Positions 38,029 to 54,078 of a stretch of DNA of 64,000 nucleotides are shown here, piece by piece. Within the stretch, counting starts at the first letter, position 1. Each line of letters opens with the position of its first letter. The DNA is from an uncultured bacterium. GTDB taxonomy: Bacteria; Patescibacteriota; Saccharimonadia; Saccharimonadales; Saccharimonadaceae. The stretch lies in assembly GCA_903821365.1 (NCBI GenBank), contig CAIJKY010000011.1, positions 1-64,000 of the forward strand, read 5' to 3'. The notes under the pieces are model-generated. The model worked only from the letters and a program-made list of their open reading frames with translations, did no database searches and was not told the origin of the DNA. The translations under genes were made by a program, and so were the position numbers.

Positions 38029-38036
38029 TAATAAAT

Positions 38037-38061
38037 GGCAATTATATACTTGACGTTACCA
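38037..38061. repeat. Left terminal inverted repeat of element 1
   Basis: 25 bp beginning GGCAATTATATACTTGACG and ending ACCA; the exact reverse complement occurs at 49807-49831. The TTGACG it contains (38050-38055) is 17 bp from TACACT at 38073-38078, so it provides the transposase -35. Confidence 0.95.
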
Positions 38062-38084
38062 CTCACCCCTGATACACTAGAGGT

Positions 38085-39032
38085 ATGGAAGCGTTCAATC
38101 TCATTCAGTTCTACAACTCATTTGCCACAGAAGAACAGTGCCAAAAGTTCCTACTTGAACAGCGGTGGTCTGACGGTGTAGTATGCCCTAAATGTGGCGA
38201 GATTGGCGTTAAAACCTATAAGCTGAAAAGTGGTCGTTTAAAATGCGCGAGCTGTCGTAACACGTTTACTGTTCGCATGGGGAGTATATTCGAAGAAAGT
38301 CCTGTACCACTCCAAAAATGGTTTTTGGCGATCTATTTATGTACTAGTCTCAAAAAAGGCATATCTTCCTTGCAGTTAAGTAAGTACATAGGCGTCACTC
38401 AAAAGACAGCTTGGTTCATGCTCCAGCGCATACGTCACGTATTTGAAAGCGGCAGCTTTGAAAAGCTGTCCGACGAAGTTGAAATGGATGAGGCATACAT
38501 AGGCGGTGCAGACAAAAACAAGCATCACAGCAAGAAACTCAAAACCCTGACCGGCAAAGGTGCGCAGGGCTTTGGAAGTAAAAATAGCAAGACACCCGTC
38601 GTTGGTATGGTTGAGCGTGGCGGCAAGCTTCGAGCGATTGCAACCAAAGACACTGGCAGTAGTACACTCATGACCCTTGCGCGTAACAATATCAATATTG
38701 ACGCAACAATCTATACCGACGAACATATGCCCTATCGCACTTTGCCCAAGCTCGGCTTCAAGCACAAGAGCGTTAATCATGGTGTAAAAGAATTTGTAAA
38801 TGGCATGGCGAGTACAAACACAGCAGAGGGTTTCTGGTCGCACCTAAAACGTGGCATTAACGGCATTTACCACCACGTTAGCACCAAGCATTTACAGTTT
38901 TACTGTGATGAGTATAGCTTCCGCTGGAACACCCGTGAGATGACCGACGGCGAACGATTTGAGGCTTGGTTTGATAATATTGGCGGCAAGCGTTTGATGT
39001 ACAAGACACTTACCAAGAAAGCGCAGAACTAA
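38085..39032 (+). CDS. IS1595-family transposase (element 1)
   Basis: 315 residues. N-terminal zinc ribbon CPKCGEIG ... CASCRNTF, then the ISXO2-like DDE domain: DEVEMDEAYIGG (first Asp), IYTDEHMPYR (second Asp), and NTAEGFWSHLKRGINGIYHHV with the Asn/Glu end of the catalytic set. Length and motifs match IS1595 enzymes. TACACT ends 6 nt before the ATG; the -35 lies in the left inverted repeat. No frameshift or stop, so it is probably active. Confidence 0.95.
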   Translation: MEAFNLIQFYNSFATEEQCQKFLLEQRWSDGVVCPKCGEIGVKTYKLKSGRLKCASCRNTFTVRMGSIFEESPVPLQKWFLAIYLCTSLKKGISSLQLSKYIGVTQKTAWFMLQRIRHVFESGSFEKLSDEVEMDEAYIGGADKNKHHSKKLKTLTGKGAQGFGSKNSKTPVVGMVERGGKLRAIATKDTGSSTLMTLARNNINIDATIYTDEHMPYRTLPKLGFKHKSVNHGVKEFVNGMASTNTAEGFWSHLKRGINGIYHHVSTKHLQFYCDEYSFRWNTREMTDGERFEAWFDNIGGKRLMYKTLTKKAQN

Positions 39033-39081
39033 TTAATATATTGTCCTCAAGGTCGGTGACAATCTTTACTATTATATAATC

Positions 39082-39187
39082 TGTTATAATCAAATAATCG
39101 TCCCCTCTACCTATTAAATAAATCGGAATAGGAGGGGTGGCAAAAAATATCCACTGCCACTAAGTAAAGATATCACCTCAAATTCCC
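39082..39187 (+). promoter_or_regulatory. Promoter and structured leader of the element 1 winged-helix gene
   Basis: Extended -10 TGTTATAAT at 39082-39090. The leader of about 90 nt contains CCCCT...AGGGG plus CTATT...AATAG (one interrupted stem) and GTGGC...GCCAC. No ribosome-binding site lies near the ATG; the purine-rich GGAATAGGAGGGG is inside the stem. Confidence 0.55.
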
Positions 39188-39964
39188 ATGACTAATACAC
39201 TTCCTCCTATTACACCCAAGCAACAAGAAATATTAAAACTACTATATAAGTATAGATTCCTCAATAGAATACAGATACAACAATTACTAAAGCATAAAGA
39301 TAAAAGAAGAATAATAACCTGGCTAAAAGATCTAAGAGAAAAAGAGTACATAGACTGGCAGTACGATCCATCTAACTTCATAGCTAAAAGCCAGCCAGCT
39401 ATCTACTACTTGTCACTCAACGGAATCCGATATCTTCGCAGCCTCAATGAATATCCCACGGCCGAACTGCGAAAACGATACAAAGAGCCGGAACGCACAC
39501 CGGTGTTTATTGATAGATGTCTAACCATTGCCGATTGCTGCATAACGCTACGAAATAACAGCAAAGACGGTGTAGCGTATTCATATATCCTGCCTTCGGA
39601 TTATGCCGGATTGAGCAACGAATACAGTTTTCTTGACGAACTGCGACCGCAGCTATACTTCTCCAAACATCAAGGTAATAACGTAACAAATTACCTCCTC
39701 GAAAGTCTTAACACAACTCTGCCACGCTACCAGCTACGCAAGCGTCTCAAAGACTATATGGACTTTCTGGACGAATGGAATGATACAAACAAATCACAGC
39801 CGATTGCCTTGTTTGCATGCACTACCGTCGCTGATCTTTTGTATGTTAAGCGCCGGGTGAAGCAACGTGTAAACGATGAAGATATTGATGCGCAGGCTCG
39901 CGTGACGATGGTAGATAAGCTCAAGACTTCTGGCGTTGCTAGTATGATTTGGGAAGACGTGTAG
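39188..39964 (+). CDS. Replic_Relax-like winged-helix protein (element 1)
   Basis: 258 residues. An N-terminal winged helix (QQEILKLLYKYRFLNRIQIQ, then RRIITWLKDLREKEYI and PAIYYLSLNGIRYL) is of the Replic_Relax (replication-relaxation) type found in mobile elements, followed by an alpha/beta domain that may be nuclease-like but has no motif I can assign. The first 60 codons are unusually AT-rich (ATA, AGA, CTA), then usage becomes normal. A homologue follows the transposase in element 2. It may regulate or assist transposition or transfer. Confidence 0.75.
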   Translation: MTNTLPPITPKQQEILKLLYKYRFLNRIQIQQLLKHKDKRRIITWLKDLREKEYIDWQYDPSNFIAKSQPAIYYLSLNGIRYLRSLNEYPTAELRKRYKEPERTPVFIDRCLTIADCCITLRNNSKDGVAYSYILPSDYAGLSNEYSFLDELRPQLYFSKHQGNNVTNYLLESLNTTLPRYQLRKRLKDYMDFLDEWNDTNKSQPIALFACTTVADLLYVKRRVKQRVNDEDIDAQARVTMVDKLKTSGVASMIWEDV

Positions 39965-39980
39965 CTCCATTACGTAACCT

Positions 39981-40030
39981 GCTCTTGCAAAGCAAGGGCG
40001 GGTTGACCTGTTTTCTAAAAGGAAACAGGT
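39981..40030. terminator. Paired hairpins between the core module and cargo of element 1
   Basis: GCTCTTGC (39981-39988) with GCAAGGGC (39992-39999), then ACCTGTTT (40006-40013) with AAACAGGT (40023-40030). They lie between convergent genes, so they probably terminate both. A matching pair sits at the same place in element 2. Confidence 0.65.
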
Positions 40031-40047
40031 ATAGAGGATACGCAGGA

Positions 40048-42297
40048 CTATAAATCTTGCAGAACTGAGAGAGCGTCGCCGATAATACGACGAACGTCTG
40101 TCGCGCCAATAGCATTAGTGTCATAGCCGCCAGGATTAGTTTGGTCGTGGTGAACCTCGTGCGGTAGTAGGGTTCGGATGCGTGCTATGAGGACTTGCTT
40201 GTTTTCGTATGGCTTACCAGCTTCGCTCAGGGTATTGATGAATGTCTCAAGCGACTTTTTATCGCGTATATTTTCTGCAAGCAGCTTGTAGTACTTTCGT
40301 TTCATGATGTTTTCGATCACGTGACGGACGTTCTGTAGGTGCCCGACGTTCAGTTCTGAGTCGGGTAATAATACGTATCGTTCGAGTTCACCGAGCTTGC
40401 GGTAGTATTCGTCCATGAAGAGGCCATGTGTACTAACGTCAAGGACTGTAAAGTCGCTGGTACTATTTGTCGGACTCCATTCGAGCATTAAATTTACCAC
40501 ATCACTTTGTATGTCACTGACGAGCATTCGTAGAAAGTCTTTGTCGTGTGTGAGTGTAATAAATTGACACGGAGTTGTCGCGCCTTCTCGAATATGTCGT
40601 ATATATTTGACAGTGTTGTTACGTCTATCGGCGTCGAAGCTTGATACAGGATCGTCAAGTACTACAATAAGATCATTGCACTTCGGGTCATTTACGACGC
40701 TAGAGATAAAGAACGCAAAGCAAAGTGCGCGACGGTCGCTTTCACTGAGAGTATGTTTGGAGGTGTGCGTGCTTACTCTTGAGCCTGTGCCAATTCCTAC
40801 CGTATGTGTTTCATCAAACACGAGGGTAAACAGGTCATTCCGTGTACGACCTTTATAAATAAGGTTCTGCACTCTGAAGTTTACGCCTAGTGCTGCAAGG
40901 CACTCATTGACAGTGGTCATACAGCTAGTGTAAACGCTAGTAGCATAAGCTGACTGGGCTTCTACTGCGGCAGTCAATTGTGGCGTAATTTCTTCATCAT
41001 TCTTACGTTTTGTCTCTAGATATTCTTCGGCTTTCGTTTTCCATGGTTCGGAGTCGCGTTTTTTAGCGACTTCGTAATCGCGGAGGTTGTCCTTTGTCGC
41101 TTTGACTTTCTCTGTCAGATCACCCTCATATTGCTCAAGCGTTTTCTCTAGCTGCGTAGTTAACGGGGCGCATTCGCCTTCAAGTGTCTCAAGTGCTGAG
41201 AAGTCTACCGAATATGCGAAGTCTTTCTTCTTCTCAATCTGTTCAGCAAAGGTAGTGATCGCAGCATCTATACGGTCGTCTGCACCACGGAGGTCTATTG
41301 AAACATCGAGTTTAGCTAGTTCTATAACACCTTTACGCAGCTTGCTCACAACGTCCCAGCGCGAAAAGAACAGCTCCTGTGTATGGCGACTTGTCGCCAT
41401 CTCATTGTAGCTTTTGCTAAAATAATCACCGTACGCCTTAATGAGATCGTTTGCGTCACCGTTTTCAGTAGATTGTGAGCAGAAAGGGCAAATATTTTTG
41501 CCTTCACTGAGTACCAAACCTTGACGCAGGAATTCTTTAGCATCGCTTTCGCTTGCATCATTGGCCATATTTTCGTGGATATGGTTGGTGATTTTAGAAA
41601 CATCCACTGAAAGATCGCGTCCAAGGTCAGTCCTACTTTTCGGAAAGTTTGACTCTTTAAGTACGTCTAGCATGGCCGTGAGTTGACCCTGGATACTCTC
41701 CTGATTTTTGTAAGCGTTTAGCTGCTTGGTCTGTTCTTCGATAAGGTCATCGACATACTCAATAGGGTCGGCTTTCAGGAAATCGTCAAAACTAGGGTGA
41801 TCGAATGGCTTACTAGCGTTGTATTCACGACTTGTCGTACCAAGTGCTGTGGCATTTTCACGCTGCGTGACCGTAAGATCAAGAACTTGTTTTGCGAGAC
41901 GCACACCCTCGCTGCCGAGGATGAACGTCTCGATCTTCTTCTGTCCATCTTCTGTTATTTCTTCGTCGGGTGAGAAAAAATTCTCATGAATATACCGCGT
42001 ATCAAAAATACGAATATCCTCTAGTGACTTGTCCCAATCGGTGCCATTGAATTTATAGTTATTGCCGTCTGCTACGAAGATAGCTCGCTGCTGAAGTGTC
42101 GAACCGAAGGTTTTGCGTCCTTTGATAAAGTCAGGGTTATTAGTTTGAAGTGAACGAATAACTGCGGTGAAAGTGCTTTTGCCATGCGTATTACCTGCAT
42201 AGATATGAGTATTCTTATTGAATTGGTATTGAGGCTGACCACCACCTGTTTTAGCGATTCTGCCGATGTTTTCAATGTTCTGGACTCGTTCAATCAT
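40048..42297 (-). CDS. RloC/AAA_13-like ATPase, putative anticodon nuclease (anti-phage)
   Basis: 749 residues. N-terminal P-loop AGNTHGKST at about 34-42, then a coiled-coil centre containing CPFCSQ (about 270), the CxxC zinc-hook motif of RloC/Rad50-like ATPases. The second ATPase half has LSESDRRALCFAFFISSV (signature-like) and LIVVLDDPVSSFDADRR (Walker B and D-loop). The C-terminus has RHVIE followed by HEVHH, an R-x3-E ... H arrangement like the PrrC/RloC tRNA nuclease site. RloC cleaves tRNA anticodons after DNA damage or phage infection; that role is inferred. TAAAAT lies at leaderless spacing. Confidence 0.75.
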   Translation of the reverse strand: MIERVQNIENIGRIAKTGGGQPQYQFNKNTHIYAGNTHGKSTFTAVIRSLQTNNPDFIKGRKTFGSTLQQRAIFVADGNNYKFNGTDWDKSLEDIRIFDTRYIHENFFSPDEEITEDGQKKIETFILGSEGVRLAKQVLDLTVTQRENATALGTTSREYNASKPFDHPSFDDFLKADPIEYVDDLIEEQTKQLNAYKNQESIQGQLTAMLDVLKESNFPKSRTDLGRDLSVDVSKITNHIHENMANDASESDAKEFLRQGLVLSEGKNICPFCSQSTENGDANDLIKAYGDYFSKSYNEMATSRHTQELFFSRWDVVSKLRKGVIELAKLDVSIDLRGADDRIDAAITTFAEQIEKKKDFAYSVDFSALETLEGECAPLTTQLEKTLEQYEGDLTEKVKATKDNLRDYEVAKKRDSEPWKTKAEEYLETKRKNDEEITPQLTAAVEAQSAYATSVYTSCMTTVNECLAALGVNFRVQNLIYKGRTRNDLFTLVFDETHTVGIGTGSRVSTHTSKHTLSESDRRALCFAFFISSVVNDPKCNDLIVVLDDPVSSFDADRRNNTVKYIRHIREGATTPCQFITLTHDKDFLRMLVSDIQSDVVNLMLEWSPTNSTSDFTVLDVSTHGLFMDEYYRKLGELERYVLLPDSELNVGHLQNVRHVIENIMKRKYYKLLAENIRDKKSLETFINTLSEAGKPYENKQVLIARIRTLLPHEVHHDQTNPGGYDTNAIGATDVRRIIGDALSVLQDL

Positions 42298-42359
42298 TTG
42301 CTTATCATTTTAGCAATTTTATTGCAAAGTTAACAGATATGAATAAGGAAAATTAAAAA

Positions 42360-42403
42360 CCCTCCGACCCGTGTGCACTGATAGTGCGATACGGGTCGGA
42401 GGG
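42360..42403 (-). terminator. Strong hairpin terminator of the GC-rich operon
   Basis: CCCTCCGACCCGT (42360-42372) and ACGGGTCGGAGGG (42391-42403) are perfect 13-bp arms with GTGC...GCAC inside. On the minus strand a TTTTTAATTTT run follows. Confidence 0.92.
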
Positions 42404-42465
42404 GGCCGCGACTGCTTGTGGCGTCGAACGGCGTGAGGCATCTGTGATGCCTGGGGTGTGGCGAG

Positions 42466-43503
42466 TTAGGCGACGTGCGCCAGCTCAACCAGGATGTTCA
42501 TGCGGGGGTGATCCACGAACAGCTCCTGCTCGGGACGCCTCTCCACATTCTTCCAGTAGTCGTAGGTGAGCCTGGTCTTTGCCATCGTGGCCTCCGGGTT
42601 ATCCGTAAGAGCTTCGATGGCACGAACCTCAGCCGCCGACGATGCGCTGGGCCGCAAGGACGGGTCGGTAACACCCGACAGGAACGTTCCGCTGCACGAC
42701 ATACCCTGAACCACGTCCAGGGTGGCGTGCGAAACGGTCGTTCCGAGCAGGCTGTACGCGTCGAAGACGCGCTTTGCCTGATCAACCGCGAGCTGGTCGT
42801 GAGAGTCCTTGGCGTGCTTGCGCAGCACGTCGAGTCCGCCACGAACGACGGTCAGCTCGTTGCCACCGAACCGCGTCATGCCGTCATGATCGACATCATA
42901 CGGCCGACCGTGCCACGTGTAGATGACTCCGTCGATGTTGACGTAACCAATCGTAATGGTCACCGGCCCGTGCAGATCGGCTTCGAGGACGATGCCGGTT
43001 TTCGCCAGCTTCGTTTCGTACTGCGCCAGGATGCTGACGAGTTCGGTCTCGTTGCCGATGAAGTGCTGACCGAGGCCGCCCGTGTTAGCAGGGTCCTTGA
43101 GGCGGACAGTGAGGTTGTTACTCCGCATCAGACGGTATGCCTGCACAGCGTCCTCGATCGTGAAGGCGGTGTAGCCCGGAAGGGCGACCTCCTGAACGTT
43201 CTGGGCGAAACGGGGCGAGTACCAGCGCGGGTGCTGCGCGTCACGCGACGGCAACATGTGCAGGATGGCCTTGTCTGCGTGTTCGAGGTGCTGAACGATA
43301 CCCCCGTAGAGGTCACCGATCCCCGAGATGCTCCTGTCGAGGGCGAGGTCAGCGTGGACTGCGGCGAAGGGTACGAAGTACACCCCACCCTCGCGTCCGA
43401 GATGGCTGCCGATACGATCGGCGACCGCCTTGATGTTGACCGGGACGCTGCTGTTCGGTCGGTACTTCAGCACCGGGTTGTCGAGCAGGACGACACGAGA
43501 CAC
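42466..43503 (-). CDS. DUF3182-like ATP-grasp family protein, GC-rich
   Basis: 345 residues. VRLKDPANTGGLGQHF, the GPVTITIGYVNIDGV stretch and RFGGNELTVVRGGLDVL resemble the DUF3182 family, an ATP-grasp-like group sometimes annotated as biotin-carboxylase-like; metal and nucleotide residues cannot be assigned with confidence. It starts 11 nt after the upstream gene, so the two are co-transcribed. Strongly GC-rich codons, unlike the rest of element 1. May ligate a carboxylate to an amine; product unknown. Confidence 0.65.
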   Translation of the reverse strand: MSRVVLLDNPVLKYRPNSSVPVNIKAVADRIGSHLGREGGVYFVPFAAVHADLALDRSISGIGDLYGGIVQHLEHADKAILHMLPSRDAQHPRWYSPRFAQNVQEVALPGYTAFTIEDAVQAYRLMRSNNLTVRLKDPANTGGLGQHFIGNETELVSILAQYETKLAKTGIVLEADLHGPVTITIGYVNIDGVIYTWHGRPYDVDHDGMTRFGGNELTVVRGGLDVLRKHAKDSHDQLAVDQAKRVFDAYSLLGTTVSHATLDVVQGMSCSGTFLSGVTDPSLRPSASSAAEVRAIEALTDNPEATMAKTRLTYDYWKNVERRPEQELFVDHPRMNILVELAHVA

Positions 43504-43514
43504 GGGACACTCCT

Positions 43515-44714
43515 TCAGCGGGTGTTGGTAGAGAGCGCCTTGTTGCGCATCTCTTCGTACATGGCGTCCAGCACTTCTTTCGTACGACAGAGGCCGCCAT
43601 TATCGAAGTACTGAGGGTGGTGCATAGGCTCGATGAGCTCATGCGTCAATCCGGGGTTTACTCGCGCGAACATCGGACAGATGCCACCGAATACAACCTC
43701 GGAAGGCTGCCATCCCACGAACGTCCAACCGTTTACCAGCAGCCAGCGCATGATGCGTGCACCGCGAGGCGTTGCTGCGACGTCAGTCTCGACGATCACT
43801 TTTTGGCTGATGGTGCCAGAGAGCTGGTCATCGACTTCGCGGGTAGACCGTGTGGCCAGATGGCTTGCACCATCCGTCACGTAGTACTTGGCGACAATGT
43901 CGGCGGACGGCGGACGAGCTTCACGAAAGATGGGTTCATCTTCATGAGCGTCGGATGTCGTACCGAACATAGGTGAAAGCGCCCCGTTAGTTCCCTCGGC
44001 GAGGAGAGTTTGCAGGGAGTGCTCCACCAGGTCGTTTGGAACGAATACACGTGCAGCGCTGGCTGATTTGAGCCAAGCGATGGCCTGCGTTGGAGCAGTA
44101 AATCCCGTCAACGGTTCAATACCGCCGACACGGAAGTTCCACCCCACGTTGGTCGCCACGAGTGGCAGTACGGCGTCGTGTTGACGACCACCCCACCACA
44201 CGCTCTGTGCTTGTTTCCCGCCCGGTGCGCCGTCTCGACCTTCCCGTGCGGCTCGCGGAGAGCCGTACAGAAAACTTACGTCGGGCAGGTTTTCGGCTGC
44301 CCACATGAGACGGTACTTAGACAGGTGTCTCACGCGGACAGAGGCAGCTTCCTCTCCGGGGAGCTTCACTGCTTTGCTTAGCTCGACGAATTGGAGGTCA
44401 CCCCGCATACCGTTCGAGCGACGGACAAGACTGGCGATGGCGATTACTTTCTCGCCATCAAGCAGCATGAACAAAAGGGTATCTCCCTTCGCCATGCTCG
44501 CGGCAAGCGCATCGACGTCTTTGGTGCTTTGCGGATAGTTTCCCTTGTAGGTGCTGTCCAGCAAGGCACTACAGGCGTAAGCGACGTCCCGGAGATTGGA
44601 AGACCCCAGACGTTGAATGTCGCTCGGCGTGCGCAATGTCAGACCCAAGGCCTCGTATTGCGCTAGCCCTTGCAGCGTGTCAGGGTCGTCATAACGACCC
44701 CATGACTGGTTCAC
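43515..44714 (-). CDS. Unknown protein, partner of the DUF3182-like gene, GC-rich
   Basis: 399 residues from GTG 44714, preceded by GGAGGGTGATCC. The first half contains an acyltransferase-like pattern (LLFMLLDGEKVIAIASLVRR, later SKYRLMWAAENLPDVSFLYG) that could be GNAT-related, but I cannot assign the family. The C-terminus has several Cys/His residues (GGICPMFARVNPG; MHHPQYFDNGGLCRT). First gene of a two-gene GC-rich transcript; probably makes or modifies the same small molecule as its partner. Confidence 0.6.
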   Translation of the reverse strand: MNQSWGRYDDPDTLQGLAQYEALGLTLRTPSDIQRLGSSNLRDVAYACSALLDSTYKGNYPQSTKDVDALAASMAKGDTLLFMLLDGEKVIAIASLVRRSNGMRGDLQFVELSKAVKLPGEEAASVRVRHLSKYRLMWAAENLPDVSFLYGSPRAAREGRDGAPGGKQAQSVWWGGRQHDAVLPLVATNVGWNFRVGGIEPLTGFTAPTQAIAWLKSASAARVFVPNDLVEHSLQTLLAEGTNGALSPMFGTTSDAHEDEPIFREARPPSADIVAKYYVTDGASHLATRSTREVDDQLSGTISQKVIVETDVAATPRGARIMRWLLVNGWTFVGWQPSEVVFGGICPMFARVNPGLTHELIEPMHHPQYFDNGGLCRTKEVLDAMYEEMRNKALSTNTR

Positions 44715-44755
44715 GGATCACCCTCCGTCAGTTGGACTCGTATTGTCGATCAGAC

Positions 44756-44800
44756 AACCTGACTAAAATAACACATTTTATAGATAAAGTCAATTCGATG
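44756..44800 (-). promoter_or_regulatory. Promoter of the GC-rich pair
   Basis: On the minus strand TTGACT is followed after exactly 17 nt by TATTTT, in an AT-rich stretch. A 35-40 nt GC-rich leader with GGAGGG leads to GTG 44714. AT-rich promoter in front of GC-rich genes, as at the TetR gene. Confidence 0.65.
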
Positions 44801-44801
44801 A

Positions 44802-45506
44802 CTACTGGTTCAACCAGCTCGCAAGCGCATCATAGTAAGCAGGCACGCCTTCTTGTGGGTTTGCTGGGTCGCGGAATGCGTGAGCAAAACCTTTTGCAAC
44901 ATAAACTTGCGCATCAAAAGCGGATGCATACACGTTGGTTGTCTCCGTAGGTACACTCTTGTCTTCGCCATGAACTACAAGTAGTGTTGACACATTCTTG
45001 ACAGGTGGTTGGAGGAAAATAGGATGCTTCTCAAGTGATTCGATGTTTTTACGGTATTCGCGAACGAGGATTTTGTCGATAAGACGATGCTCGGTATAAA
45101 AAGAACTTGGCTCGTAGATAGCCGGGGTTCGGAGAATCAGCTTTTCAACAGAGCGGAAACGGCTCAGACACGCAGCTATAAAACCTCCATAACTTGTACC
45201 CATAACGTAAATATCGCTATCTGCGTAGTTGTCGTGAATCCAGTCATATGCCTTGGTTGCTTCAAGCAAATGCTGGGCTGGGGTGGTGTCGTCCACGTCA
45301 AAAGGGCTTTCGCCGTGTCCTGAGAAGTCTACAACGAGCGCGCTCATACCAGTCATATCAACGAGCTTTGCCATGAAGTCGAAGTTACTTTTTTTACTAG
45401 AACCAAACCCTACGAATGTGAGGATGATTTTCTGATTTGTTGTGCCCTCATGCCAATCGGCTTCGATTTTATATCCCGGGCACGGGATAGAGATTTGTTT
45501 AGTCAT
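44802..45506 (-). CDS. Alpha/beta hydrolase
   Basis: 234 residues. Nucleophile elbow MGTSYGGF near residue 104, acid candidate HGEDKSVP, catalytic histidine KGFAHAFRD. DFSGHGES is the oxyanion-side HG-type motif. No signal peptide. Composition is native, in contrast to the GC-rich pair. Could be an esterase, thioesterase or BAAT-like hydrolase; substrate unknown. Confidence 0.85.
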   Translation of the reverse strand: MTKQISIPCPGYKIEADWHEGTTNQKIILTFVGFGSSKKSNFDFMAKLVDMTGMSALVVDFSGHGESPFDVDDTTPAQHLLEATKAYDWIHDNYADSDIYVMGTSYGGFIAACLSRFRSVEKLILRTPAIYEPSSFYTEHRLIDKILVREYRKNIESLEKHPIFLQPPVKNVSTLLVVHGEDKSVPTETTNVYASAFDAQVYVAKGFAHAFRDPANPQEGVPAYYDALASWLNQ

Positions 45507-45561
45507 TAACGTATATTATAACACATTTGTTATCAATCTTTAAATTTGGGCAAGTTTAGTA

Positions 45562-48228
45562 CTATAACCCCCTCAAATTACTCTCCGGTGTAGTCTTGAC
45601 ACTTCTGCGTCGCGTCGTAACGGCTGGCTTCTTCTTTTCCCTTACTGATGCATTCTCGCTAAAAAGCACCTCCATCTGCTCCTCAACCTTCACATGCGCC
45701 GTGGCATACCTCTTTCGGCTGTTAGTAATGACTGTCTTTTGCACCTTCTCACTTTCTTCAACATCCAGCGGCACTGTCTGCCCAGAAAAAGCCTCCTCGC
45801 TGTCTTCGGTCGCCACCTTCATATAGAAGTGGTATGGTGCAAGGTTTACAATGTCGCCCTTTTCTACTTCAGGTTTCATGTATGGCAGAATAAAGGCTTC
45901 GTCCTCCGGGTTGGCTCGAAGGCAGATCATAGTTGCGGCGTTACCCGCAACAACTTTTATTAAATCCTTGTCTTCAATCTGCGCGATGTTCTGATGCGAC
46001 ACGATCAAACTGACGTGGAATTTACGGCCTTCGCTCGTTATCGCGCCAAACTGCGGCGTGGCAAAGTTCTGGAACTCGTCAACGTAGACAAAGAAGTCGC
46101 GGCGCTGCTTTTCGGGTATTTTGGTGCGTTGGTAGGCCGCCATCCAGATAAGCGACGTTAAGATAGTACCAAAGAATTCGCTTTGATCTTCACCGATATC
46201 GCCCTTGGATAGATTGGCGAGTAGTATTTTACCGTCATTCATAATGTCGGCAATCCGAACAGTTGTTTTTTCTTGCAGCAAAATGTGCCGGGACATTTTG
46301 GACGTTATGAAGTGACCAAGCCGGTGCGTCAGTGGCGCTGTTGCAGCCGACATCTGCATCGTGCCCATAAGCTTGAACTCTTTTTCCCAGAATTGTTTTA
46401 ACACCGGGTCTTTCAGCTTCTTGGCAACTTCCTTTTGATATTTCTTATCGGTTAGCAATCGTTGCAAGGTAAACAAGCTCGGCTTTGGGGTTTGCAGGGC
46501 GGTGAGCGTAACATTACGCAAGATATGTTCCATACGCGGACCCCATTGTTTGTCGTCGGATAGCTTCTTAAAAACCGACAACACGGCGCTGGTTATCCAG
46601 TCGTGCTTGTCATCTTCACTAGTAAACTCAATGCCTGGGTCAAGGATATTCAGGCCAACCGGATAATCACGGTCTGAGGGGTCGAACACCACCACATCTT
46701 TACGTCTGTTTTCTGGCACAATACTTAGCAGCTCGCGGAACATATCTCCATGCGGATCAAGCACAGCCAAGCCTTTGCCGTTATGCATATCCTGGTAAAT
46801 CGCTCCTTTCAGGAGTGTCGTTTTACCCATGCCGGTTTTCCCGATAATATACGTGTGCTTTTGGCGCTGCTCCAGTGTCATGCCGATTTCTTGCACATTA
46901 TCACCAAACGTGTTAGCACCGACAATCACGTCCAATTTAGTATCGCTGTGCTTTATAGATAACGGCGCAGCTAACTCGCGACTCCGACTCTTAACCAAAC
47001 CTTCTGTTTTTGTCAGGTCGGTATTCGGGAAATGGTAAAGGTCAGATAGCTCCGAGCTGGATAGAATAGTCTGTTGGCTGATGATGTGGTGCAACAATTC
47101 ACGGCTACAAAAGCGCTCGAGCCACTTTTCAGCCGACGTAAACGGTGGCAGCCTGCGGCTAATAATAGACTGGTGAGCGGCCGTGAATGTCCCAAATGAC
47201 GACACGACAGCGTTAAGTCGAGCGGCAGTACTGTCAGCATCTGGTGAAGCAACTAAAACGCGCATAGTCACTTCAAATAAATGCTGATCGAGTTTGCTCC
47301 TGATCGTTTTGCCAAGTTCTTGCTCATACGGATTAACCGTTGGACGCTTAGTAACCGATGGGGTGTTCACGAAGTCTATGGTCTTAAACACTAGCCAGAT
47401 CGGCAAAAGTGGTGAGCATACTATATACAAAAGGATGCGGCGCACGTTAATTTTGTTGGCGGTCAGCTTAGGTGCAATTTCTTTATTAAGCGCAATGCGG
47501 TGTTGTGTATGGCGGATATGTCGCAGCTCGTTTGGGTGAGTATTGTCGAATACTGGTACCGCAACAATTTGCACGGCTACAAGTTCATCTGGTAGCAAGT
47601 TGCGCATGTGTCCGGTAAGATAGGCGGCCGGGTCGTGTTCCTCAAGCGCTTTTTGGCTGGCAAGCGGCAGCACGAAGTCACTGGATAACTTTAATTCAGT
47701 GACGCTCCACGCGAGGTTGTCTATACCCTGCATATAGTCGGTCGTTTCTTTTACTTTGAGCCCTGGTAAAAATGACACGAGCGTCCGTTTGACTGTCTCG
47801 ACCTCCTGTTTCGGTATGCGTATGACATACCGGATACCATTGTTACGCGTGGCGACAAGCTCTAAAGAATACGGTTGCTTGCGGGCAGCCATGCGCGGCC
47901 ATAGCTTCGGGTATCTGACCATACTGCGCATGAGGATATGGAGCTGCTCGGTGGCGTAGGCGGATTTTGTCGTGTCTGCTGGGAATACGAGTTGCAAGAA
48001 TGCGTATTCAATTTCGCCTTTGTCTACGCCAAAACGACGCAGCATATATGAAAAGAACGTCCGCCAGTACTGCACCGCTTTAATAATTAAGAAGCCAAGA
48101 AGATACGCAAGCCCGATCTCAATAAACAACGCACCAAACACAATCAAGAGTGTCATGCCGTCGCTTAAGTGATGCTCCTGCGTGTAGCGAGCGGGGCCGT
48201 TAATGAGGGTATCGATGAGGTTCTGCAT
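45562..48228 (-). CDS. VirD4/TraD-like (DUF87-type) coupling ATPase
   Basis: 888 residues. An N-terminal membrane helix (LLIVFGALFIEIGLAYLLGF), a roughly 350-residue domain, then the motor: GMTLEQRQKHTYIIGKTGMG with Walker A GKTGMGKTTLL (about 463-473), LAVLDPHGDMF, Walker B FFVYVDEFQNFA, and SLIVSHQNIAQIEDKDLI. C-terminal basic tail. It is like the type IV secretion coupling ATPases found in CPR and Gram-positive mobile elements, used to pump DNA or proteins across the membrane. No relaxase gene lies nearby. Confidence 0.85.
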   Translation of the reverse strand: MQNLIDTLINGPARYTQEHHLSDGMTLLIVFGALFIEIGLAYLLGFLIIKAVQYWRTFFSYMLRRFGVDKGEIEYAFLQLVFPADTTKSAYATEQLHILMRSMVRYPKLWPRMAARKQPYSLELVATRNNGIRYVIRIPKQEVETVKRTLVSFLPGLKVKETTDYMQGIDNLAWSVTELKLSSDFVLPLASQKALEEHDPAAYLTGHMRNLLPDELVAVQIVAVPVFDNTHPNELRHIRHTQHRIALNKEIAPKLTANKINVRRILLYIVCSPLLPIWLVFKTIDFVNTPSVTKRPTVNPYEQELGKTIRSKLDQHLFEVTMRVLVASPDADSTAARLNAVVSSFGTFTAAHQSIISRRLPPFTSAEKWLERFCSRELLHHIISQQTILSSSELSDLYHFPNTDLTKTEGLVKSRSRELAAPLSIKHSDTKLDVIVGANTFGDNVQEIGMTLEQRQKHTYIIGKTGMGKTTLLKGAIYQDMHNGKGLAVLDPHGDMFRELLSIVPENRRKDVVVFDPSDRDYPVGLNILDPGIEFTSEDDKHDWITSAVLSVFKKLSDDKQWGPRMEHILRNVTLTALQTPKPSLFTLQRLLTDKKYQKEVAKKLKDPVLKQFWEKEFKLMGTMQMSAATAPLTHRLGHFITSKMSRHILLQEKTTVRIADIMNDGKILLANLSKGDIGEDQSEFFGTILTSLIWMAAYQRTKIPEKQRRDFFVYVDEFQNFATPQFGAITSEGRKFHVSLIVSHQNIAQIEDKDLIKVVAGNAATMICLRANPEDEAFILPYMKPEVEKGDIVNLAPYHFYMKVATEDSEEAFSGQTVPLDVEESEKVQKTVITNSRKRYATAHVKVEEQMEVLFSENASVREKKKPAVTTRRRSVKTTPESNLRGL

Positions 48229-48300
48229 GCTCTAATCTCTCTGAAAGGAAGTCAGCGCCACACCCGCCGCTCTATACTCGTCCGTTGCCTATATCAAATC

Positions 48301-48528
48301 CTATAATCCTTTAAATAACTCGGCGACCGGAACTTTCAAACATTCCGCGATCTTAAACAGGGTCGCAACGCGCGGCGAGCGTCGCCCCTGTTCGATATAT
48401 CCGATAGTAATAACCGTAAAGCCGGTTCGTTCGGCAAGTTGCTCTTGTGTCACACCGCGTTCACGGCGAACCGTGGCAATTCGATTACCGAGTCCTTTTA
48501 GTTGTTTCGCCTCAGATTGTTTACTCAT
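48301..48528 (-). CDS. XRE-family helix-turn-helix regulator
   Basis: 75 residues from ATG 48528. A single HTH_3 domain (LGNRIATVRRERGVTQEQLA, then TGFTVITIGYIEQGRRSPRV). Two ACTAnTAGT palindromes lie in its divergent upstream region, probably its own operators. It is oriented towards the coupling-ATPase gene and could repress it and the divergent 48663 operon. Confidence 0.9.
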   Translation of the reverse strand: MSKQSEAKQLKGLGNRIATVRRERGVTQEQLAERTGFTVITIGYIEQGRRSPRVATLFKIAECLKVPVAELFKGL

Positions 48529-48548
48529 ATCTCTACGGTAAATAATCC

Positions 48549-48632
48549 TTACTATTAGTAACACTAACTACTTGTTTGAGTTAGTTGAACATGCTACTGT
48601 AATTAACAGATATAATACTAACTAATAGTTAG
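48549..48632. promoter_or_regulatory. Divergent control region with two XRE operators and one further dyad
   Basis: TTACTATTAGTAA (48549-48561) and CTAACTAATAGTTAG (48618-48632) are perfect palindromes sharing the core ACTA-N-TAGT. Between them ACTAAC and GTTAGT form a third, spaced dyad (48563-48585). TATAAT at 48611-48616 abuts the right palindrome. Confidence 0.65.
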
Positions 48633-48662
48633 AGTTTATATTTTTTGACAGAGTAGGGAATT

Positions 48663-49103
48663 ATGCACGGGTTAATCATTGAAGAACGCCAGTTAAACAA
48701 CAAGCTTCTCTCTCGCGATCTCGCTGAACTGCTTTTTGAGTATGCTCGCTACGGCAGAATTGTGGTCACGACGGACAAACCTACCGTATTACACTCGACA
48801 ATTCGGCGACACTGGCAGTATCTAGTGCGACGTCTGAAAATTGACCGATCACGTACTTTAAACCACTCAGTGATAGATGATATTAACCGTCGGCTATATT
48901 TTGCTCGACGCGTTCGTTTTAGCTCAAAACCACTAGAAGATGATCTTCTGGACGCTGACATTACTTTTATGAAGGTGAGTGATTGTGTGCGAGTAGCACC
49001 TGTTTGTCAAATACTATGTGTGACTTGTGAAGTATCTAGGGAGAAGCTATATCTCATGACAGCGTGGATACCCAAAGGCGGCAGAGTTATCCTTTATGGA
49101 TAG
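48663..49103 (+). CDS. Hypothetical protein, 146 aa, upstream of radC-like
   Basis: 146 residues, basic N-terminal half, with GRIVVTTDKPTVLHSTIRRH and a cysteine-bearing C-terminal half. It ends overlapping the RadC-like gene by 8 nt, so they are coupled. No recognised domain. GTAGGG before the ATG is a weak ribosome-binding site. Being paired with a JAB protein inside a mobile element, it could be a small binding or inhibitory partner, but there is no direct sign of that. Confidence 0.6.
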   Translation: MHGLIIEERQLNNKLLSRDLAELLFEYARYGRIVVTTDKPTVLHSTIRRHWQYLVRRLKIDRSRTLNHSVIDDINRRLYFARRVRFSSKPLEDDLLDADITFMKVSDCVRVAPVCQILCVTCEVSREKLYLMTAWIPKGGRVILYG

Positions 49104-49485
49104 AACTTTGCCGCTCGTAACAATCGAGGATATATTGCTACACTTAAAGTTCATTCGCACCAAGAAGCAGGAATACGTCCTTTGTTTGTCGCTTGATAGC
49201 GGGTGTCGCCTAATTGCTAGGCGCGTCGTAACTATTGGAACGCTCACTTCATCTTTGATATATCCAAGAGAAGTGTTCGCAGCGCCACTCAAAGACCGAG
49301 CAGCTAGCGTGGTGATTGCTCACAATCACCCCTCAGGTGACGTCAGCCCGAGCAGAGCCGATATTGCCGTAACTCAGCAACTTGTGGCGGCTGGCCAGAT
49401 ACTAGGGATTGCGATGCGTGACCATCTTATTGTTACCAACGTTGACTACTATAGCTTTAGGAGGAGCGGACTGCTGCTTAATTAG
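49096..49485 (+). CDS. RadC-like JAB-domain protein
   Basis: 129 residues, only the JAB/MPN part of RadC (no helix-hairpin-helix domain). HNHPSGDVSPSRAD is the metal-binding HxHPSGDxxPS motif and Thr/Gln-rich LVAAGQILGIAMRDHLIV follows, as in RadC. Such short RadC proteins occur in plasmids and mobile elements. A peptidase-like metal site is intact. Coupled to the upstream gene. Confidence 0.9.
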   Translation: MDRTLPLVTIEDILLHLKFIRTKKQEYVLCLSLDSGCRLIARRVVTIGTLTSSLIYPREVFAAPLKDRAASVVIAHNHPSGDVSPSRADIAVTQQLVAAGQILGIAMRDHLIVTNVDYYSFRRSGLLLN

Positions 49486-49539
49486 CGGCCCAGCGTTTGG
49501 CTAAAACAGACAAACACTCCTTTTTGCTATAATCAAGCT

Positions 49540-49770
49540 ATGGCAACAGATAAAAAGCCAACTAAAGAAGAAATCAAAGAGCTAGAAGCTCAAATTAAAC
49601 GCGATCAGGAAAAGCCCGTGCGCGGAAACGAACGACGCGTAAGAATCGGCACTAACTTCAAAGACGCTGTTAAAGAGATGTCTAAAGCCCCACCAATGAC
49701 CAATAAAGATGTAGCGAAATGGGTTAAGGAACAGCGCGAAGAAACTGATAACATAGAGAACGATAAGTAG
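49540..49770 (+). CDS. Small charged protein, 76 aa
   Basis: 76 residues, nearly half Lys/Glu/Asp/Arg: TKEEIKELEAQIKRDQEKPV and a C-terminal helix VAKWVKEQREETDN. Likely helical and cytoplasmic. TATAAT lies 6-7 nt before the ATG (leaderless). Last gene before the right inverted repeat of element 1. Confidence 0.65.
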   Translation: MATDKKPTKEEIKELEAQIKRDQEKPVRGNERRVRIGTNFKDAVKEMSKAPPMTNKDVAKWVKEQREETDNIENDK

Positions 49771-49806
49771 CTTTTATATTCTGAAATTGTTACCTCTGTT
49801 ATGATT

Positions 49807-49831
49807 TGGTAACGTCAAGTATATAATTGCC
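49807..49831. repeat. Right terminal inverted repeat of element 1
   Basis: Exact reverse complement of the left repeat; ends ATATAATTGCC. It is followed directly by TAATAAAT, the target duplication. Confidence 0.95.
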
Positions 49832-49901
49832 TAATAAATATTAAAAATCAAACAAATGATCGACCCGCATCATCGATGATCATATTTGCTATACTTCGCT
49901 T

Positions 49902-50399: not shown

Positions 50400-50427
50400 G
50401 TTTGAAATTAATATATACTTCAGAAAA

Positions 50428-50450
50428 GGCAATTATCCCTTGACGCCATA
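50428..50450. repeat. Left terminal inverted repeat of element 2
   Basis: GGCAATTATCCCTTGACG then CCATA. It shares GGCAATTAT and TTGACG with element 1. TTGACG (50440-50445) is 17 bp from TATACT (50463-50468), the transposase -10. Confidence 0.9.
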
Positions 50451-50478
50451 ATAACTCTGGTATATACTAATAATAGAT

Positions 50479-51324
50479 ATGAAGTTCACCATAAAGCAGT
50501 TCAATGAGAAGTTCCCTACCAGTGATGCCTGTCTCGATTATCTCTGGCAAGTCCACTTTGCGGACAAGCCTTGTGAGAAATGTGGCCTACTTGAAGGTTT
50601 TCATAAACTGCCAAAGCGTCCTGCCTATCAATGTGAATGTGGTAATCAAATCTATCCGCTGGCCAGTACGCCCTTCCATAAAAGTACAACTGACCTTCGC
50701 ACTTGGTTTCTTGCCATCTTCTTTATGACGAACACCCGCTCTGGCATGAGTGCTCTCCAGTTTCAGCGTATTAGTGGCATCACCTACAAAACTGCCTGGC
50801 GCATTTTCAAACAAGTCCGTCTTATGATGGCCGACGACGAAACACTACTCAATGATGCTGTTGAAGTAGACGAAGCCTACATGCACCCGAACCCACAAAA
50901 ACGCAGTACGGCTAAGCCACATAACAGTCAGGTTATGTTTGGTATGGTAGAGCGTGACGGACGCGCAAGGATTAAGCATGTTAAAAGCTCCGGTGTTCGT
51001 GTACTCGTTCCCGAAATCCAAAAGAATATTGGTAAGACGGCCACGATCTACACGGACGAATATGGCTCTTACCGGCTGCTCAAGCGACGCGGTTACCAAC
51101 ATGAAACCGTCAACCATAGTAAACAAGAATACGTTGTCGGCCATGTGCATACGCAAAACGTCGAAAACTTTTGGAGCCAATTTAAGCGCGGTATCTACGG
51201 CGTTTATCGCCACTGCGATCCAAAATATTTGCAGCACTATGCTAACGAGTACGCTTTCCGCTACTCAAATCGCAAGAACAATACACCGATGTTTGAGCTG
51301 GTTTTGGCAAAATCTAGTAAATAA
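50479..51324 (+). CDS. IS1595-family transposase (element 2)
   Basis: 281 residues. Zinc ribbon CEKCGLLEGFHKLPKR ... CECGNQIYPL, DDE domain with VEVDEAYMHPNP, IYTDEYGSYR and NVENFWSQFKRGIYGVYRH. Clearly a different branch from the element 1 enzyme but the same family. TATACT ends 10 nt before the ATG. Intact frame. Confidence 0.94.
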   Translation: MKFTIKQFNEKFPTSDACLDYLWQVHFADKPCEKCGLLEGFHKLPKRPAYQCECGNQIYPLASTPFHKSTTDLRTWFLAIFFMTNTRSGMSALQFQRISGITYKTAWRIFKQVRLMMADDETLLNDAVEVDEAYMHPNPQKRSTAKPHNSQVMFGMVERDGRARIKHVKSSGVRVLVPEIQKNIGKTATIYTDEYGSYRLLKRRGYQHETVNHSKQEYVVGHVHTQNVENFWSQFKRGIYGVYRHCDPKYLQHYANEYAFRYSNRKNNTPMFELVLAKSSK

Positions 51325-51366
51325 TGGTAATCTCCCGGTACCCAATCTACTTTATAAATCTTTATC

Positions 51367-51513
51367 TGTTAAGATAGTAATACCTTCTCGTTTCCCTTCT
51401 ATAAAAATATAGGAGTAGGAGGGATAGGCAAAGAAACTTATATATATAGCCAATCCAATAAATTACAGACATAAAACATCTAACTTAAAATCTAATAACT
51501 TACAAGCTATAAA
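51367..51513 (+). promoter_or_regulatory. Promoter and long leader of the element 2 winged-helix gene
   Basis: CTGTTAAGAT is the counterpart of the CTGTTATAAT extended -10 in element 1. The AT-rich leader of about 130 nt has TCTATaaaaATATAGGA as a hairpin and a purine run AGGAGTAGGAGGGATAGGCA matching the one in element 1. No ribosome-binding site near the ATG. Confidence 0.5.
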
Positions 51514-52401
51514 ATGACAGACAATACTCTATCTACTAATACAGAACTAAACAAACCAGAACCAAAGTACCGTAAAAAACTCAACCAAGAACAGCTGGCA
51601 GTATTAAACCTCCTGTATACATTCAGGTTTGCAAGTAACGAACAAATAGCAAGATACCAAAGAAAACCAAGCAACAAGCATGTCCAAAAGCGGCTCAAAA
51701 TACTCGAAAACCAACAATACGTCGCTAAGCGCTACGATAAGTCCTATAAACTCAAAGGCAAACCAGCCGCCTACTATTTGTTGCCAAAGGGCGCACGGGC
51801 TTTAATAGGTCTAGGCGATCGTGATGAGAATGAGCCAATTAATATCAAGCGCATCTACAAAGATAAAGATGTATCCGAAGGGTTTATGCAACACAGTCTT
51901 AATATCCTCGGCGTCTACCTAGCGCTTAACGCACTACACGGCAATAAGTTAGATTTCTTCACTAAGAGTGACCTTAAATACGAACAATTCGAGTTTTATC
52001 CGCAGCCGTTATCAGATGCCCATGTTCGCATCAGTACCAAAGATGGCGACAAGAACTTCTTTCTTGATATCTTCGAAGATAACCAGCCGTTCTTTGTACT
52101 TATTAGGAAGATTAAGAAATATCTGGAGTACGCCGGCAGTGGCGATTGGCCGGAAGAATCCTTACCGACTATCTTAGTGATCGTCGAGAACAAGAGCGTG
52201 CATAAGCGACTACGGAAGCGGATTACTAAAGAGCTGCGTGACTCGTACGAGGAAGTATCCTTTGCGACGACGAGGTTAGAGTACTTGCTTGATACTGAGT
52301 ATAAAGGCAAAGTCTGGTTCCCGATTGATGAAGATGGCGATGATCCAGACGAACCGACAACACCCGCAATACTTACAAAGCTGCCACGAACGGATGATTA
52401 G
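51514..52401 (+). CDS. Replic_Relax-like winged-helix protein (element 2)
   Basis: 295 residues. The winged-helix region (QEQLAVLNLLYTFRFASNEQ, then HVQKRLKILENQQYVAKRYD and KPAAYYLLPKGARALIG) aligns with the element 1 protein. The C-terminal alpha/beta region and acidic tail (EDGDDPDEPTTP) differ. The 5' codons are AT-rich and ATA/AGA-containing as in element 1. Same position after the transposase, so it is part of the mobile core. Confidence 0.75.
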   Translation: MTDNTLSTNTELNKPEPKYRKKLNQEQLAVLNLLYTFRFASNEQIARYQRKPSNKHVQKRLKILENQQYVAKRYDKSYKLKGKPAAYYLLPKGARALIGLGDRDENEPINIKRIYKDKDVSEGFMQHSLNILGVYLALNALHGNKLDFFTKSDLKYEQFEFYPQPLSDAHVRISTKDGDKNFFLDIFEDNQPFFVLIRKIKKYLEYAGSGDWPEESLPTILVIVENKSVHKRLRKRITKELRDSYEEVSFATTRLEYLLDTEYKGKVWFPIDEDGDDPDEPTTPAILTKLPRTDD

Positions 52402-52402
52402 T

Positions 52403-52456
52403 ACTTCCATTTGCCTTGCGGCAAGTGGAAGTCCCTATTTCCTGGAGGGAAATAGG
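52403..52456. terminator. Paired hairpins between the core module and cargo of element 2
   Basis: ACTTCCATTTGCC (52403-52415) pairs with GGCAAGTGGAAGT (52420-52432), then CCTATTTCC (52434-52442) with GGAAATAGG (52448-52456). The second stem abuts the tyrS stop. Same placement as in element 1; bidirectional termination likely. Confidence 0.7.
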
Positions 52457-53671
52457 CTATTGCCTAAGTCTTACAACCCCGCGCTTGCCCACCTTCAATA
52501 TATCCCCATCACCAAACTGCATGGATCTTTCGGCATCAATCTTCTCGTCATTAAGCTTCACTGCACCTTGTTCAATAAGCCTCCTGGCTTCCGACTTAGT
52601 GCCTACAAAATCTCCAAGAACAAGCAAGCTTGGCCAATCCTTGATCGAATCATCGATAGTTAAGTCTGCCACGTCACCAGGCGTGGCCCGTTTGCTGAAC
52701 TGCTCAGTCCAGGCAATCTTTGCTTTTTCGGCCGCTTCAGCGCTGTGATAAAGTTTTACGATTTCATGCGCTAGTCTCATCTTTACATCGCGTGGGTTTG
52801 TTCCGTCTTTCAAGCTTGTCTCAATCTTTTCTATTTCTGTCATTGAAAGATAGGTGCAGTCAATAAAGCATTGCACTAAACCTTCGTCGGCGAGCGCCAT
52901 GGCCTTACCAAACATATCGTTTGGCTCGGCTTTTAAGCTTACCCCTGTGCCTAGACTTTTACTCATGAGTTTTTCGCCTGTAGCTCGGTTTGTTAGCAAG
53001 GTTGTTGTCATGACAAATTTGTCTTTGCTGTTATAGCGCTTCTGTAGTGTGCGGCCAGCCATCATATTGAAAAGCTGGTCACTACCACCAATCTCTAAAT
53101 CGGCATCCAGTGCCACGGAATCGTACCCCTGCATGAGCGGGTAGAAGAACTCATGCATGAAAAGAGGCTTGTTGGCTGAAAGACGCTTTTGGAAGGCGTC
53201 ACGCTCGATCATTTGCTGGACGGTAAAGTTTGCCGCCAATTCAGCTGTATCGGCGAAGGTAAGCTTTGAAAGCCAGTCCGAATTGAATCTAAACTCTATT
53301 GGATTGTCACTAGCGCCAAAGTCAAGAATCTTGGAAATCTGCGACTTGAATGAGGCAAGGTTCTCTTCAACCTCCGCACGCGTTAGTTGCTGGCGCAGCG
53401 AGCTTTTGTCGCTTGGGTCGCCAATCATGGCGGTGAAGTCGCCGACGAGTACAATGATCTTATGACCTAAATTATGTAAGCGCTTTAGAATGATGTAGTT
53501 CGTTGAGTGACCGATATGAATATAATCGGCAGTTGGGTCAATACCCATGTAGATACGAAGTTGCTTGCCCGAGAGAAGTTTTTCTCTTAGCGCTTCTTTG
53601 CTTGGAAAGATAGTCTCCACGGAACGGGTTAGGATTTCATCAATTAGAGATGGATCTGTCAAAATATGCAT
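52457..53671 (-). CDS. tyrS: Tyrosyl-tRNA synthetase carried by element 2
   Basis: 404 residues, full length. IYMGIDPTADYIHIGHSTNY holds the HIGH motif, KLMSKSLGTGVSL is of the MSKS type seen in the TyrZ branch (the TyrS branch has KFGKS/T), and the C-terminal S4 domain reads RRLIEQGAVKLNDEKI. AGGAG lies 6 nt before the ATG, rare here, and a terminator-like hairpin stands about 55 nt upstream. It charges tRNA-Tyr. Whether it is the only tyrS of the cell, or a resistance or spare copy, cannot be told from the window. Confidence 0.95.
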   Translation of the reverse strand: MHILTDPSLIDEILTRSVETIFPSKEALREKLLSGKQLRIYMGIDPTADYIHIGHSTNYIILKRLHNLGHKIIVLVGDFTAMIGDPSDKSSLRQQLTRAEVEENLASFKSQISKILDFGASDNPIEFRFNSDWLSKLTFADTAELAANFTVQQMIERDAFQKRLSANKPLFMHEFFYPLMQGYDSVALDADLEIGGSDQLFNMMAGRTLQKRYNSKDKFVMTTTLLTNRATGEKLMSKSLGTGVSLKAEPNDMFGKAMALADEGLVQCFIDCTYLSMTEIEKIETSLKDGTNPRDVKMRLAHEIVKLYHSAEAAEKAKIAWTEQFSKRATPGDVADLTIDDSIKDWPSLLVLGDFVGTKSEARRLIEQGAVKLNDEKIDAERSMQFGDGDILKVGKRGVVRLRQ

Positions 53672-53723
53672 AGTTACTCCTACGAGAGAGGTTAGAGTTT
53701 ATAGAGCTAGTATGAGATAGAAT

Positions 53724-53745
53724 AAAAAGGTGTTCGTGGAACACC
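53724..53745 (-). terminator. Terminator-like hairpin in the tyrS upstream region
   Basis: GGTGTTC and GAACACC (loop of 3) then TTTTTATT on the minus strand. It either ends the 53-residue gene transcript or attenuates tyrS. No T-box sequence was recognised. Confidence 0.75.
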
Positions 53746-53855
53746 ATAATAGGTACGATATGCGCAGTTTCTATTTTGACAGAAGAGCATGATGTTATTT
53801 TAACATAACTTTCTATTTAAAGATAAAGGATCGAGCTTAGGTTCAAGTCCGGCAA

Positions 53856-54017: not shown

Positions 54018-54055
54018 GCTTCTAGTATATATCGAAATAGATATTCAATTCAGTA

Positions 54056-54078
54056 TATGGCTTGAGGGTATAATTGCC
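54056..54078. repeat. Right terminal inverted repeat of element 2
   Basis: TATGGCTTGAGGGTATAATTGCC without spaces ends in TATAATTGCC; its reverse complement matches the left end at 19 of 23 positions, with both extreme 9-bp ends identical. Confidence 0.88.

Follow-up and report, generated by a model that had tools for sequence, protein, structure and literature searches.

IS1595-type cargo transposons with fixed ends and exchangeable interiors in Saccharibacteria

The subject of this analysis is an 11,795-bp element at positions 38037-49831 of a 64-kb stretch of DNA (hereafter the window) from contig CAIJKY010000011.1 of an uncultured bacterium of the Saccharimonadaceae (assembly GCA_903821365.1). 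The element begins and ends with 25-bp terminal inverted repeats (TIRs) that are exact reverse complements of each other at all 25 positions, and identical 8-bp target-site duplications (TSDs) of the sequence TAATAAAT lie directly outside them; the next-best match to the TIR anywhere in the window has at least 6 mismatches. A gene for an IS1595-family DDE transposase stands beside the left end and ten further genes lie inside, in agreement with a first-pass annotation, made from the sequence letters, that had read the region as an IS1595-type transposon with perfect ends and passenger genes. The transposase frame is intact and scores 197 bits against NF033547, where the cut-off is 75; PF12762 (DDE_Tnp_IS1595) and PF12760 (Zn_ribbon_IS1595) are both matched over the Pfam gathering scores, and by reading of the protein D135, D212 and E248 are likely to be the catalytic residues. 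Within the left TIR is a -35-like motif, TTGACG (38050-38055), followed 17 bp downstream by a -10-like TACACT ahead of the transposase gene, and the enzyme would probably be expressed from this promoter. From what is known of the family, and from the duplications, the transposase would act on both TIRs, and the complete element would be inserted in AT-rich DNA with an 8-bp duplication as the result. We regard it as practically certain that the element is a real transposon of the kind described.

The first-pass annotation had suggested computing the background frequency of the end sequence and looking for it in other Saccharibacteria; both were done, and the same ends were found elsewhere with exact 8-bp duplications. 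A degenerate TIR pattern gave hits in 10 of 295 genomes of the host family and its reversed-pattern control gave none; in nine of the ten the pattern occurs just twice, once in each orientation, and in the other only once, near a contig end. Transposases close to that of the window were also found in 10/295 genomes, and their surroundings contain TIR pairs with duplications. A wider scan of genome contigs added the complete genome CP025011.1 (YM_S32_TM7_50_20), with an element of 9176 bp, as well as JARIHL010000061 (16,896 bp) and RXKC01000005 (4678 bp). This brings the total to 12 Saccharibacterial elements including that of the window, the other 11 measuring 4.7-16.9 kb. Short relatives of 2.0-2.5 kb with near-identical ends were present in a Gaiellaceae bacterium, a deltaproteobacterium and Marinosulfonomonas. 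Every element bounded by this type of TIR (16/16) carries identical 8-bp flanks, which are AT-rich in the Saccharibacterial set. An accidental pairing of the window's ends is ruled out by the mismatch scan, the genome-wide TIR counts and these 16 duplications.

The twelve Saccharibacterial elements share one order: TIR, transposase, Replic_Relax, cargo, o76, TIR. The Replic_Relax gene follows the transposase in all of them, although as a mere remnant in the genome G014, and o76 is recognisable in 11. At the DNA level, homology between the window's element and most other members is limited to the first ~970 bp, comprising the left TIR and the transposase, and the last ~290 bp, comprising o76 and the right TIR; its nearest relative, in G295, additionally shares Replic_Relax, VirD4, a helix-turn-helix (HTH) regulator, a gene for a 146-residue protein and RadC. 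Between the fixed ends, the elements of G112 and G035 carry two-component systems, ApbE, FMN-binding and NqrB-like proteins (flavin electron transfer) and ABC transporters, while that of G071 (L054:3764-17721; JAIUPJ010000001, SACCH1; 13,958 bp) has a TetR regulator, an MFS protein and a type IV secretion system (T4SS) set. Cargo in G037 is a shikimate dehydrogenase and an AadA-like protein that scores under the resistance cut-offs, and in G295 a PrnB-like protein, a GHMP kinase, methyltransferases and Shedu SduA. G297 has a short-chain dehydrogenase (SDR) and Ku. In CP025011.1, the complete genome, the element's cargo includes a Ku gene (L128:3256-3840) close to a short-chain dehydrogenase. 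The G016 element (L052:10270-18434) holds a sortase, a 667-residue protein of unknown kind and a reverse transcriptase with an Avd-like protein, the last two of which would constitute a diversity-generating retroelement inside the transposon. The earlier description of a unit with defence and transfer genes is true of the window's copy but not of the family, whose cargo varies.

It is very probable that interior cargo is exchanged between the conserved ends. The interior would be swapped wholesale, most simply if two elements in the same cell recombined homologously through the ends that they share. In G014 (L056:3384-9154) the transposase breaks off after about residue 191, the tail of Replic_Relax comes directly behind it, and VirD4 is reduced to its first 33 residues, but both 25-bp ends are perfect; this element is a deletion derivative.

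The elements of G112 and G035 share 99.4% identity across 14,420 bp (0.6% of positions differ) but occupy different sites, with duplications ATTTATAA and TAATCTTA, and where the DNA flanking them in the two host species can be aligned over longer stretches, its identity is only 66-78%. This combination shows a recent transfer of the element between species. Furthermore, once the element and one TSD are left out of the G035 sequence, the joined flanks align continuously with an intergenic region of G078 and G099, an empty site. At the level of the family, there has been mobility in recent evolutionary time. The differences within the G112/G035 pair (L050:1878-16297 and L051:3759-18176) cluster near element positions 6500-7000 and 10000-11000, which suggests local recombination.

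The short relatives of other phyla (L129, L130, L131) carry SocA/Panacea, BRO-N or PIN-domain genes, that is, toxin-antitoxin-like passengers. A virus contig (L132:1112-1818; IMG/VR UViG_3300035698_006810) contains a 707-bp unit with the same type of TIR boundary, duplication TCCTAGCA and no transposase; it is probably a non-autonomous form carrying one open reading frame (ORF) of 116 amino acids.

The genes of the window's element are collected in Table 1. The first-pass annotation had counted them correctly but left the second, Replic_Relax, unnamed. Its VirD4-like label is borne out by TrwB_AAD_bind, which scores over the Pfam gathering score, and its RadC-like label is supported for the JAB part only. 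The ATPase that it had called RloC-like does match AAA_13 (PF13166, 82 bits) and has some of the motifs, but the best PADLOC model is PDC-S06, the PADLOC PrrC model reaching only 19.7 bits, so the name fits only roughly. The likeness to the RloC/PrrC anticodon nucleases and to PDC-S06 lies in the AAA_13 ATPase, in a single CxxC (CPFC at 270) and in C-terminal R-x3-E and R-x4-H motifs (R658-x3-E662, R708-x4-H713). The E-H spacing, around 51, is longer than that of PrrC, and the protein fits best the uncharacterised candidate PDC-S06; its function in defence is putative. Since the DUF3182 gene and the gene for the 399-residue protein have GC contents of 0.62 and 0.58, against 0.48 for the element overall, their composition suggests a separate origin. 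Family and structure searches found no family and no solved relative for the 399-residue protein (o399), and a structure prediction for o76 gave three helices at low confidence and was uninformative.

Table 1. Features of the IS1595-type element in the window
Feature	Position	Strand	Basis or remark
Target-site duplication, left copy	38029..38036		TAATAAAT, 8 bp
Left terminal inverted repeat	38037..38061	+	GGCAATTATATACTTGACGTTACCA, 25 bp
IS1595-family DDE transposase, 315 aa	38085..39032	+	NF033547, DDE_Tnp_IS1595, Zn_ribbon_IS1595
Replic_Relax (PF13814), predicted N-terminal winged helix and alpha/beta domain; backbone gene	39188..39964	+	Pfam
AAA_13 ATPase, putative anti-phage cargo	40048..42297	-	PADLOC PDC-S06; RloC/PrrC-like motifs
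DUF3182 protein, cargo, 62% GC	42466..43503	-	Pfam
399-aa protein without family match, cargo, 58% GC	43515..44714	-	Family scans
Alpha/beta hydrolase, cargo	44802..45506	-	Family scan
VirD4/TrwB-like coupling-protein ATPase, 888 aa	45562..48228	-	TrwB_AAD_bind
HTH_3 regulator, common to G014 and G295 elements	48301..48564	-	Family scan
146-aa protein without family match, common to G014 and G295	48663..49103	+	Family scan
RadC-like JAB protein without RadC N-terminal part	49096..49485	+	Family scans
o76, small charged helical protein, 76 aa, beside right end	49540..49770	+	Conserved in 11/12 Saccharibacterial elements
Right terminal inverted repeat	49807..49831	-	Exact reverse complement of left repeat, 25/25 bp
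Target-site duplication, right copy	49832..49839		TAATAAAT, 8 bp

A second IS1595 element of 3651 bp, which the first-pass finding did not mention, lies 0.6 kb away at 50428-54078. Its TIRs are imperfect, its duplication TCAGAAAA (50420-50427 and 54079-54086) is exact, and its transposase is ~38% identical to that of the first element. It has a Replic_Relax gene of its own, and its cargo is a tyrosyl-tRNA synthetase (TIGR00234, 339 bits), of which the genome holds another homologue, 28% identical, on contig C3. No TIR pair was found around the third transposase of the genome (G000:C11:97911-98705).

A long VirD4 gene is found in four of the twelve elements (those of the window, G295, G071 and G047), with the remnant in G014, and the T4SS set in one (G071). 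Between the TIRs of the latter lie pilin/TrbL, PrgI, TrsD and VirB4 (CD1110 over the curated cut-off), CHAP and VirD4, an almost complete set of Gram-positive type which supplies the mating-pair and coupling-protein parts of an integrative conjugative element (ICE); from its genes the G071 element looks like an IS1595-based ICE without a recognised relaxase. The window's element has, in its transposase, TIRs and TSD, the integration module of its own that characterises an integrative mobilizable element (IME). Close relatives of its VirD4 (65%), accompanied by the same type of HTH protein, a small protein that is conserved and a putative PLD-like protein, also occur at L062:9164-15587 and L063:378-15862. 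These modules are near serine-recombinase genes and lack a window-type transposase, and once Replic_Relax is with them; the L063 recombinase was assigned from its sequence, a PDB search having returned no match. They look like a VirD4 module carried by an integrative element of a different type.

The Replic_Relax proteins fall into two clades, about 20-24% identical to each other, that are scattered over a tree of transposases 71-95% identical; between the window and G112, for example, the transposases are 90% identical and the Replic_Relax proteins just 22%. Even Replic_Relax has therefore been exchanged in place. A structural model, built from six sequences with a mean predicted local distance difference test score (pLDDT) of 73, comprises a winged helix and an alpha/beta domain whose order of strands and helices, read by eye, is PD-(D/E)xK-like. 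The PD...(D/E)...K residues are present in clade B, but PD reads PQ in clade A, to which the window's protein belongs. A fold search against the PDB returned only MarR-type winged helices, with no relaxase or nuclease match, and the matches in BFVD are uncharacterised Bacillus phage proteins.

We put the probability that these elements are transposons with fixed ends and exchanged cargo at roughly 0.85, a figure that excludes the route of transfer. An alternative would be a composite origin, in which an insertion sequence and unrelated islands had been inserted earlier and the ends only look paired by accident; the high-GC block at 42466-44714 (0.58-0.62 against 0.48) would fit such a history, but it is contradicted by the identical ends, the matching TSDs and the same left and right gene order in 11 other elements, and we give it almost no credence. 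As for how the element travels between species, movement as an IME is the likeliest route: the excised form would be handed to a T4SS by the VirD4-type coupling protein, with Replic_Relax as the DNA-binding or processing partner in the hand-over. We infer this mechanism as a whole, VirD4 on the element and its co-location with Replic_Relax being circumstantial evidence, and conjugative mobilisation, as opposed to transformation or phage, has in our judgement an even chance of being correct. The serious rival is natural transformation, in which an IS1595 cargo transposon would move only within cells, VirD4, RadC and the HTH regulator being mere cargo. Saccharibacteria are competent, with DNA uptake through type IV pili and ComEC according to work cited in PMC12857230; moreover, 7/12 elements have no VirD4, and the short elements of other phyla have no transfer gene. 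Against transformation stand the retention of Replic_Relax beside the transposase in the Saccharibacterial elements, the second window element included, and its strong co-location with VirD4 genome-wide, also near serine-recombinase genes: the two lie no more than 20 kb apart in 17/44 cases where 2.1 are expected from random placement, a statistic that ignores relatedness among the genomes. On this evidence transformation is a real but lesser prospect.

What Replic_Relax does is a matter on which two proposals compete. A survey of Patescibacteria (2025) counted 5,713 VirD4 homologues, few of them near virB4, with hardly any relaxases, and left open the existence of "very different relaxases" (PMC12102498); Replic_Relax is a candidate, and only that, for such an enzyme. 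In the fuller form of this idea, the Saccharibacterial elements would be a class of DDE-transposase IMEs and ICEs in which Replic_Relax, with its winged helix and PD-(D/E)xK-like domain, is a new DNA-processing protein in place of a relaxase and the element's VirD4 recruits the T4SS. We consider this unlikely at present; if true, it would explain why so many orphan VirD4 genes and so few relaxases are reported from Patescibacteria. Alternatively, Replic_Relax could be a TnsA-like transposition partner: by cutting or binding the ends alongside the DDE transposase, it would make much longer cargo possible. Its constant place beside the transposase (11/12, the remnant in G014 and the second window element) would fit this, as would a structure predicted to run from a winged helix into an alpha/beta domain, which in clade B has PD...(E/D)...K, and its presence in the Saccharibacterial elements of 4.7-16.9 kb but not in those of 2-2.5 kb elsewhere. 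The fold, though, was read by eye and finds only MarR-type winged helices in the PDB. Clade A, that of the window, no longer has the aspartate of PD, and transposases that are almost the same are accompanied by Replic_Relax proteins of two clades with ~78% of their positions different. In addition, Replic_Relax of the same family adjoins VirD4 in loci where the window-type transposase is absent. A TnsA-like role therefore seems improbable.

Several observations weigh against the account of a mobile, mobilizable family, the relatedness behind the co-location statistic among them. Most hosts of the family are metagenome-assembled genomes. The empty site of the window's copy, the comparison that the first-pass annotation had proposed, was not found, as no relative is close enough: the left flank is missing from the only other member of the genus; orthologs of the right-flank Nudix gene sit in other contexts and so are uninformative. 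No second copy of the window's own element was found either, and the truncated transposase of G014 means that not every copy is active. With VirD4 in 4/12 elements and a T4SS set in one, self-transfer cannot be general. Scans with Pfam and NCBIfam, which covered all but some cargo ORFs and included no MOB-specific profiles, found no classical relaxase in the elements. The PQ in the window's Replic_Relax clade makes nuclease activity there doubtful, and since simple IS1595 elements of other phyla have the same ends without Replic_Relax, transposition as such does not depend on the protein.

A literature search found no relevant paper linking IS1595 with Saccharibacteria, most subscription journals being outside its coverage, and the family is apparently an undescribed lineage of IS1595 cargo transposons in these bacteria. 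Saccharibacteria are tiny symbionts with tiny genomes, and their gene exchange is poorly known; here is a gene vehicle with exact ends that has moved recently between species, with cargo spanning defence, signalling, secretion, DNA-repair, diversity-generating and tRNA-synthetase genes. The 25-bp end sequence locates its members and so makes their cargo readable from any genome. Further, VirD4, joined once by a T4SS set, is here located on an element that moves, which renders the role of orphan VirD4 genes and the replacement of the relaxase testable in a cultivable, transformable lineage.

The family is not a new principle of transposition; what is surprising is how large the elements are, that their cargo is exchanged between fixed ends, that Replic_Relax is constant, and that there is a link with VirD4 and T4SS in Saccharibacteria. 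Insertion sequences of the IS1595 family with passenger genes (tIS) were reportedly described by Siguier in 2009. The Saccharibacterial elements resemble them in transposase family and in the style of TIR and TSD, but differ in size, in how many cargo genes there are and how these turn over, and in having a conserved second gene and right-end gene. Closest in behaviour are MTnSag1 (tISSag10) and tISCpe8, experimentally mobilizable IMEs of IS1595 type with 25-bp TIRs and 8-bp duplications (PMC5704250). They share with the present family the IS1595 DDE transposase, these end and duplication lengths, a low, AT-leaning target specificity and the carriage of a passenger gene. However, they are Firmicutes elements of 1.7-2.0 kb whose passenger is a single resistance gene and which lack transfer genes, whereas the Saccharibacterial ones measure 4.7-16.9 kb and have a backbone of Replic_Relax and o76, exchangeable cargo and in some cases VirD4 or a T4SS set; intercellular transfer of the Firmicutes elements was shown experimentally. 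TnGBS and the Mycoplasma ICEs, which are p-MULT DDE-transposase ICEs (PMC3942029), are like the G071 element in combining conjugation genes with a DDE transposase in place of an integrase, but their transposase is Mutator-like; here it is of the IS1595 family, the host is a different one, and the scans turned up no classical relaxase. Finally, the chromosomal VirD4 and T4SS genes of Patescibacteria (PMC12102498) are of the same VirD4, VirB4, PrgI and pilin types, with VirD4 usually away from virB4 and relaxases rare; in contrast to these, the VirD4 gene, and once the T4SS set, described here lies inside a transposon bounded by TIRs and TSDs.

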